From the NCBI GenBank assembly GCA_011524755.1, contig WTJR01000165.1:21168-61358 (forward strand): DNA of 40,191 nucleotides. The letters run 5' to 3'. This DNA comes from Halieaceae bacterium. Its GTDB lineage: Bacteria > Pseudomonadota > Gammaproteobacteria > Pseudomonadales > Halieaceae. Shown in pieces: positions 19,777 through 25,995 of the stretch (positions within the stretch are counted from its first letter, which is position 1; each line of letters begins with the position of its first letter). Both the position numbers and the translations under genes were made by a program. The notes beneath the pieces were generated by a model that worked only from the letters and a program-made list of their open reading frames with translations, was not told the DNA's origin and made no database searches.

Positions 19777-19860
19777 GGCAAGCGGCAAAGAGGTGAGGCG
19801 CAGTGACAGCAAACAGCCTTAACTCCCTGCTGGAGCCCACCGCGCCATTGGGTTGTTTTA

Positions 19861-19974
19861 TAGGCAGGTATCGGGCTCTGATAGGCTTAGCTATCTCTAC
19901 CGTTGCGGGGGCAGCGCTGGCTCATCCAGACTTCCCTTTTAACCTACCCGGGCGAAACACCTGTAGGCACCTAA
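19861..19974 (-). ncRNA. Cobalamin (AdoCbl) riboswitch
   Basis: Minus-strand core motifs in order: AGGTGCC, GGTTAAAAGGGAAG, GCTGCCCCCGCAACGGTA, and B12 box-like GCCCGATACCTGCC, upstream of btuB. Confidence 0.95.
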
Positions 19975-20009
19975 GCCGCGCACGGTACTCGGTTGATGGC
20001 GGTGCGTCA

Positions 20010-24743: not shown

Positions 24744-24782
24744 AGCCTCTGACAGGCTGATTGAGTCCCGGACGGGACTTTT
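24744..24782 (+). promoter_or_regulatory. Two tandem stem-loops in the leader of the small-peptide cassette; the second is terminator-like
   Basis: AGCCT-ctgac-AGGCT (24744-24758) and AGTCCC-ggac-GGGACT followed by T's (24764-24782), 25 bp upstream of the peptide ATG. Confidence 0.5.
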
Positions 24783-24806
24783 CAAACCTGACCAAGGAGG
24801 GTCTTT

Positions 24807-25076
24807 ATGCGTCACTACAGTCAATCATTCGCCATCATTCTGGCGTCACTCACAGCATTTCCCGCAGCAGCCACTCCCACCGATGCACTTATAAACAACA
24901 CGCTATCACTCCCCGCTGAGCTCAATAAGGCAATCATTGTGGACAAGGATGTTACTCAGGATATTGCCGAGCTAAGAGGGCAGCTCTGGCCGTTTATTCT
25001 CGGTGTCGTCGCTGTCGACCTCGCTCTGCAAACTTACTATTACGGCGTCTATGTCCCCCAAACGCGAGGACAGTGA
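24807..25076 (+). CDS. Small exported peptide precursor with signal peptide and C-terminal hydrophobic helix
   Basis: MRHYSQSFAIILASLTAFPAAA|TPTDALINNT... then LWPFILGVVAVDLALQTYYYGVYV; strong AAGGAGG SD. Confidence 0.7.
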   Translation: MRHYSQSFAIILASLTAFPAAATPTDALINNTLSLPAELNKAIIVDKDVTQDIAELRGQLWPFILGVVAVDLALQTYYYGVYVPQTRGQ

Positions 25077-25120
25077 ATCGACGTCAGCCAGCGTCAGCAG
25101 TAAGTAGCTCGTCAACACAC

Positions 25121-25139
25121 TGCCGCCCTTAGGGCGGCA
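25121..25139 (+). promoter_or_regulatory. Intercistronic hairpin between the peptide gene and the downstream membrane gene
   Basis: TGCCGCC-CTTAG-GGCGGCA perfect inverted repeat, no T-tract. Confidence 0.6.
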
Positions 25140-25157
25140 AAACGGGAGGAATCGGCA

Positions 25158-25415
25158 ATGGCAGTAATAAGACCAACGTCCAGACAGCGACTGGATGACA
25201 AACTAGCTAAAGGCTTAAATACCAGGCGACGTCAGCACTTATTTTTGGTGGGAATGTTTCAGCCGTCACTGACATGGTGCGCACTGGGGCTCACGTATTT
25301 GCTCGTGAAAACGCCACAGACAGACGACGCAGTCTGGTTAAGCGGCATGCTCGCGCTCTATGCGCTGCAAATAACCACCGTCTGGTATCAATCCGAGTCG
25401 CTGTCGACACGCTGA
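25158..25415 (+). CDS. Small two-TM membrane protein of the C39 cassette
   Basis: 85 aa with two hydrophobic segments (LFLVGMFQPSLTWCALGLTYLLV, AVWLSGMLALYALQITTVWY); GGGAGGA SD; nearly coupled to the next gene. Confidence 0.65.
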   Translation: MAVIRPTSRQRLDDKLAKGLNTRRRQHLFLVGMFQPSLTWCALGLTYLLVKTPQTDDAVWLSGMLALYALQITTVWYQSESLSTR

Positions 25416-25416
25416 T

Positions 25417-25995
25417 ATGCCAAATGCTGACAAGTCGAGTTTCGCGAGTCGAACCGGGGCTATGAACTTTAAACCCTTAGACTGGGGGCTTTCTTTGATC
25501 CTGGTTGCAGCACTCGCTGGACAGGTATCGCTCACTGTGGCTAGTCCAAAGCAGCCTTTGCTGCTACCCGTTATTCGGCAAACATCGTCCATCGATTGTG
25601 GTCTTGCAGCGCTTGCAATGCTCCTTAGAGACAAGGCATCGATTACAACGTCGGTGGCCGCGCTCGATAGCCTCGCTGCTGTTTTGGTTGATCCCATGAC
25701 CGCGCGCCATCGTCGAGAAGGCTACTCAGTCAGTGAATTACAAACGCTCGCAGGGGCATTCGCGTACTCATTGCAGGCGCGGAATCTCACACTAGAGGCG
25801 TTCTATACGAGTTCATTCCCCTTAATCGCATGGATTGATCCCGGGAACGGGGGACATTTCACGTTGGTGGAGGAGGTGACAGCAACATCAATAGCGTTGG
25901 CAGACCCAACTCGTGGCCGCCTAGCGATTCCCTCTAAAACTTGGCGCGAGCTGTGGCTTCAGGAAACGACAGGCATTGTCCTTGAGCTGGAATAA
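25417..25995 (+). CDS. Stand-alone exported C39-type (papain-like) cysteine peptidase
   Basis: LPVIRQTSSIDCGLAALAMLLRD (Gln/Cys), GNGGHFTLVEEV (His), IALADPTRG (Asp); N-terminal hydrophobic segment; no ABC transporter domains. An internal ATG at 25462 is an alternative start. Confidence 0.85.
   Translation: MPNADKSSFASRTGAMNFKPLDWGLSLILVAALAGQVSLTVASPKQPLLLPVIRQTSSIDCGLAALAMLLRDKASITTSVAALDSLAAVLVDPMTARHRREGYSVSELQTLAGAFAYSLQARNLTLEAFYTSSFPLIAWIDPGNGGHFTLVEEVTATSIALADPTRGRLAIPSKTWRELWLQETTGIVLELE

Follow-up and report, generated by a model that had tools for sequence, protein, structure and literature searches.

A stand-alone C39 cysteine peptidase and a small peptide with a double-glycine-type leader form a real and conserved pair in the Halieaceae, and this pair is a reduced version of the Fap/Fil type that does without the barrel. 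The cassette probably represents an envelope unit in which a periplasmic C39 would cut the Sec-exported leader peptide and free an envelope peptide of ∼30 residues. It lies in a stretch of 40,191 nucleotides (the window) from a Halieaceae bacterium (assembly GCA_011524755.1, contig WTJR01000165.1, positions 21,168 to 61,358), an assembly that is ∼83% complete. The window's list of open reading frames places three of them, of 89, 85 and 192 amino acids, in tandem on the plus strand (24807–25076, 25158–25415 and 25417–25995). A preliminary description of this DNA had proposed three small tandem genes as a candidate cassette, and the genes proved to be real: the reading frames were confirmed, all three recur in relatives, and all three are under purifying selection there (dN/dS about 0.06–0.35). 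The features of the locus are as follows.

24807–25076, plus strand: precursor peptide, 89 amino acids, with a predicted Sec signal peptide (residues ∼1–22), a propeptide, a worn leader motif (residues 48–59) and a conserved hydrophobic C-terminal segment
24948–24983, plus strand: leader-like motif of 12 codons, DVTQDIAELRGQ, that is DVTQDIAELRG/Q, in which the Gly at −2 is invariant in the peptide family
25122–25140, plus strand: G+C-rich stem-loop, GCCGCCC-TTA-GGGCGGC, between the peptide and two-TM genes
25158–25415, plus strand: small two-TM protein, 85 amino acids, with a charged N-terminus; it evolves fast and is lost in one subclade
25462–25995, plus strand: FapD/FilB-related stand-alone C39 cysteine peptidase, 177 amino acids from its likely start, with a predicted N-terminal signal peptide or anchor

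The peptidase reading frame opens at 25417, and translation probably starts at 25462, where the protein begins MNFKPLDWGLSLILV, because a stop lies just before that position in the relative G017. No Pfam or NCBIfam family was assigned to the window's peptide or two-TM protein, and no sigma-70-like promoter was found across the region. The stem-loop is stable and is present 3′ of the peptide gene in many relatives (70-nt median z of −1.5 versus −0.1 for an upstream control); it may lower the expression of the downstream genes. Elsewhere in the window, a cobalamin riboswitch was detected at 19846–19989 on the minus strand (45.6 bits).

Conservation of the peptide and its peptidase

The peptide profile (A1) matched 63 of 140 Halieaceae genomes, and its matches in a wider sample of the order were confined to this family. 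Named peptide-bearing relatives, from a species-level collection searched with a narrower peptide alignment, are Luminiphilus, the marine gammaproteobacterium HTCC2080, Haliea and Kineobactrum. A stand-alone C39 was present in every one of the 63 peptide-bearing Halieaceae genomes, and it lies next to the peptide, downstream on the same strand, save in three genomes where the contig ends. Across the class (Gammaproteobacteria sample), stand-alone C39s are frequent. The preliminary description had held that C39s routinely found without the two small reading frames would speak against a system. Within the Halieaceae this is not the case for the peptide, although one genome of the genus, G466, has an intact C39 and no detectable peptide. 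It is the case for the two-TM protein in one subclade: the two-TM profile had no match in ten genomes from one Luminiphilus group, HTCC2080 among them. The co-occurrence suggested for the trio therefore holds for peptide and peptidase and fails for the two-TM protein, which is a dispensable accessory whose gene has been lost in one subclade.

The other exceptions at the C39 locus within the genus are remnants (G020 and G483) and a contig cut (G489). G020 has lost the peptide and two-TM genes and retains a remnant of the C39, and in G018 a deletion in the peptide/two-TM region is accompanied by a frameshift in the C39. This joint decay bears on the possibility that unrelated genes are held together merely by stable synteny beside an M16 protease gene. 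The neighbourhood next to that gene is indeed stable across Luminiphilus, as such an explanation would predict, but in the g148 genomes the unit is located away from the M16 gene with its genes still together. These relocated copies already contradict the explanation, and with the joint decay and the 63/63 co-occurrence also against it, we consider it very improbable. Of the three genes, the peptide shows the lowest dN in most pairs of genomes, and its dN/dS is 0.06–0.17 in the more diverged pairs.

The C39 peptidase is homologous to FapD

The window C39 matches Pfam Peptidase_C39 (PF03412) with 62.9 bits against a cut-off of 22 (E 3.5e-17) and is the sole C39 detected in the assembly. It carries Gln, Cys, His and Asp, and the solved folds closest to its predicted structure (pLDDT 84.5) are those of GG-leader peptidases, with the C39 domains of PCAT1 and ComA as best matches; some of these folds were solved with leader peptides bound. 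There is no ABC domain, and an N-terminal signal-like segment, recognized by inspection, makes the protein appear exported or membrane-anchored. The preliminary description was borne out on the fold, the residues, the missing ABC module and the apparent export. Its analogy with FapD went further than proposed and proves to be homology, with a profile-profile E of 1.9e-23 between the window C39 family and the FapD/FilB profile; against the FapD equivalog model NF058616 the window protein scored 20.1 bits, far below the cut-off of 330. In a tree of 90 C39 domains, obtained by a quick search and containing several long branches, the ABC-fused domains stand apart from the stand-alone ones, the window's included (SH-aLRT 96).

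In an HTCC2080-type subclade (L032, L033, L034, L085, L088, L095 and L096), Cys, His and Asp are kept and the oxyanion Gln is missing, a loss seen in most C39s of that subclade whose catalytic region could be read. The two-TM gene was not found in this subclade, and its STRGG-type leader motif is clean. Because most C39s of the subclade with the cleanest STRGG lack the oxyanion Gln, C39 activity there is doubtful, and the loss is the main point against simple cleavage. It would fit a C39 that binds or chaperones the leader (compare the C39-like domains of some exporters), with the peptide remaining a full-length membrane protein, and the variable −1 residue of the motif described below would fit it too. 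We nevertheless judge a binding role unlikely: Cys, His and Asp are invariant in the C39 alignment (A4), and a Cys-to-Ala mutant of FapD blocks secretion (PMC5557850).

A FapF-type barrel in related genera

The preliminary description had seen no fap partners. As regards the barrel, this stands for the window genome (∼83% complete), in which the barrel profile had no match, as in nearly all other Luminiphilus; it does not stand for related genera. In the nine other Halieaceae genera that bear the peptide, a signal-peptide protein of ∼280 amino acids, usually ending in Phe, is encoded directly upstream of it. The Luminiphilus exception is G490, with a barrel directly upstream of the peptide, and in G415 the upstream barrel was not seen, the contig being cut at that point. 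FapF entries were the only matches of the barrel profile in the PDB (E about 0.01), and comparison with a FapF-like profile gave an E of 2.7e-18 over 254 columns. A pooled barrel profile, in which FapF-like barrels are themselves included, reached 5.5e-57 against FapF. Judged by these profile comparisons, the upstream protein of the related genera is a homologue of FapF. The barrel profile matched 16 genomes of the class sample, all 16 of which also have a C39 match, and most of the barrel matches have a stand-alone C39 no more than a few kilobases away. Homologues of fapD and fapF have also been reported to colocalize outside fap operons (PMC6173800). FapB/FapC amyloid repeat subunits were sought among the reading frames of the window locus and none was found.

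A double-glycine-type leader behind the signal peptide

The hydrophobic core is the most conserved part of the peptide, which is single copy and vertically kept. Its conserved C-terminal segment, LWPFILGVVAVDLALQTYYYGVYVPQTRGQ, spans 30 amino acids, and G58, D71, G80 and Y82 are invariant in the alignment of 42 members (A6). After the Sec signal peptide and directly before the core, the family carries the motif LSxxE[LM]xxxRG/x. A relative's copy reads LDPIELESTRGG/MVPLA and further examples are LSTQELEASTGR and LSDMELQQTHGK, while the window copy is worn (IAELRGQ/LWPF). The peptide had at first been taken to have no GG leader. This has to be revised, as a double-glycine leader (LSxxELxxIxGG type before the core) is found at the level of the family and is weak in the window copy.

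The motif was scored with a 12-residue matrix, for which 20 classical GG leaders had been compiled from general knowledge. The RG site ranked first in 49 of 62 precursors and among the top three in 61 of 62 (∼76 windows each), although the precursors are related, so that the ranks are not independent trials, and a small bias arises from the script taking the best-scoring Gly 12–17 residues before the conserved Asp. Counted as distinct motifs, 38 of 47 ranked first. The window peptide is among the weakest (score −2.0, rank 2 of 66 windows), and its structure prediction is of low confidence (pLDDT 59.8). The invariant Gly is followed by Q in the window and by R, K, E, Q, A or G elsewhere; at position −1, where G, A or S was sought, the window has Q, and G or A occurs in 12 of the 47 distinct motifs. 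Given this variability, the Gly itself may be the last residue before the cut, and the putative cut in the window peptide is predicted to lie just after RG or RGQ. A type IV prepilin (G followed by a hydrophobic helix) was considered and rejected on inspection, because the site lies behind a Sec-like signal peptide and the partner enzyme is a C39 rather than a prepilin peptidase.

The class IIb bacteriocin model TIGR03949 gave sub-threshold matches to five of the 42 peptide members, among them one in L035 at the leader motif (16.0 bits versus a cut-off of 21.5), and no match to the window peptide. These weak matches, the GG-type leader, the membrane-active-looking core, the small two-TM neighbour and a bacteriocin-like precursor beside a related C39 in L161 all favor a bacteriocin-like cassette, in which the hydrophobic peptide would kill competitors, the two-TM protein would confer immunity, and the C39 would mature the peptide. 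The conservation pattern argues in the other direction, with the single-copy core being the best conserved part and the dN/dS of the peptide being low in diverged pairs. In addition, a subclade that keeps the peptide has lost the two-TM gene, and an outer-membrane exit was not found in most Luminiphilus. We thus regard a bacteriocin as improbable and infer that the product is a structural or envelope peptide under constraint, not a toxin under diversification.

The motif at other C39 loci

Secreted reading frames upstream of stand-alone C39s outscored other signal-peptide reading frames of the same loci with the same matrix (Mann-Whitney p 5e-9; 88 versus 198), which we count as support rather than proof because the signal-peptide rule was crude, some reading frames are spurious, and the loci are related. 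The FapE-position proteins of Fap-type operons carry the motif in nine of nine cases (L163, L170, L173, L174, L177, L180, L181, L182 and L184), as judged by inspection; the matrix gives this site the top rank in some of the nine but not in all. Here it is of the LSxxE[LM]xxMRG[RK] type and stands a short way behind the signal peptide, as in LSDEELGGLRGR and LTSPEMATIRGK. Published work describes the FapD substrate as undetermined, suspects FapE on the basis of missing N-terminal peptides, and states that the Fap proteins lack canonical C39 sites and that periplasmic C39s are uncharacterised (PMC5557850, PMC6173800). With the FapD substrate in that state in the literature, the motif at the FapE position amounts to a cut-site prediction. 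Searches of the literature on FilB, DUF6160 and Luminiphilus bacteriocins returned nothing relevant.

Several C39 and barrel operons are present in the single genome G558 (L154, L155, L157, L158 and L162). For six of the ten pairs among five of its precursors, identity is 58–85% up to the motif and 14–38% over the aligning part after it; the remaining four pairs, which involve one divergent copy, share 38–41% before the motif. With a common leader and sequences that part ways beyond the motif Gly, the precursors resemble interchangeable cargoes. At L161 (6129–6518), a secreted, glycine-rich, bacteriocin-like small protein with LSDQEMKNTEGA and then WFNFVSAGWGAVGGG is encoded upstream of a stand-alone C39.

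Proposed function

From the gene content, co-occurrence, homology to FapD and FapF, motif and selection observed, we infer a course of cleavage, a cut position, a localization and a role for the product. The precursor peptide would be exported by Sec, and the FapD-like C39 in the periplasm would recognize the double-glycine-type leader that follows the signal peptide, cutting at the RG/x site. The cut would free a hydrophobic, aromatic-ended peptide of ∼30 residues to the cell envelope. Related genera encode the FapF-like outer-membrane barrel in this operon, and its probable part there is to export or guide the product. Luminiphilus has lost the barrel, and retention of the product in the envelope is therefore probable for this genus. 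The interpretation in the preliminary description is partly supported.

We also lean, by a little, towards a broader proposal that would unite Fap, Fil and the Halieaceae unit as branches of a single widespread Sec-dependent pathway. The leader would stand behind the signal peptide, a periplasmic C39 would read it, and a FapF-type barrel would take the product out, with FapD cutting FapE at LSxxE[LM]xxMRG/x and the barrel-less Luminiphilus form keeping its product in the envelope. Among Luminiphilus-type marine bacteria, a bacteriocin-style cutting signal, unusually placed in an exported peptide, suggests what FapD-type C39s cut outside the inner membrane. The Halieaceae family offers a compact pair of enzyme and candidate substrate with a recognizable leader, and since FapE-position proteins bear the same motif, a single peptide and a single enzyme suffice to test where the C39 cuts. 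Sec-exported leader peptides of this kind would form an additional class, one that searches aimed at ABC-exported bacteriocins may miss.

Comparison with known systems

Class II microcins and bacteriocins with double-glycine leaders, which use C39-ABC export, resemble the window locus in their leader consensus and C39 fold. They differ in that a Sec signal peptide precedes the leader in the window and the C39 is apparently exported, with no ABC exporter. ABC-type C39s also expect a second G or A, whereas the residue after the Gly differs in the peptide family. With the putative Fil pilus (FilA, FilB and FilC) the locus shares a C39 of the stand-alone group, to which FilB also belongs. FilC is a FapF-related barrel, and a FilA-like (DUF6160) protein in L183 bears the motif PMDESAMSDVSGQ. 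However, the FilA-like protein is large, and the window locus has neither FilA nor FilC. From the Fap functional amyloid system of Pseudomonas the locus differs in the absence of FapB/FapC amyloid repeats, in its partner, a hydrophobic peptide of ∼90 amino acids, and in the absence of a barrel match in the window genome. It shares with Fap a stand-alone C39 homologous to the periplasmic FapD, a FapF-homologous barrel encoded by the window's relatives, and a Sec-exported partner peptide whose leader-like motif is also that of the FapE-position proteins.
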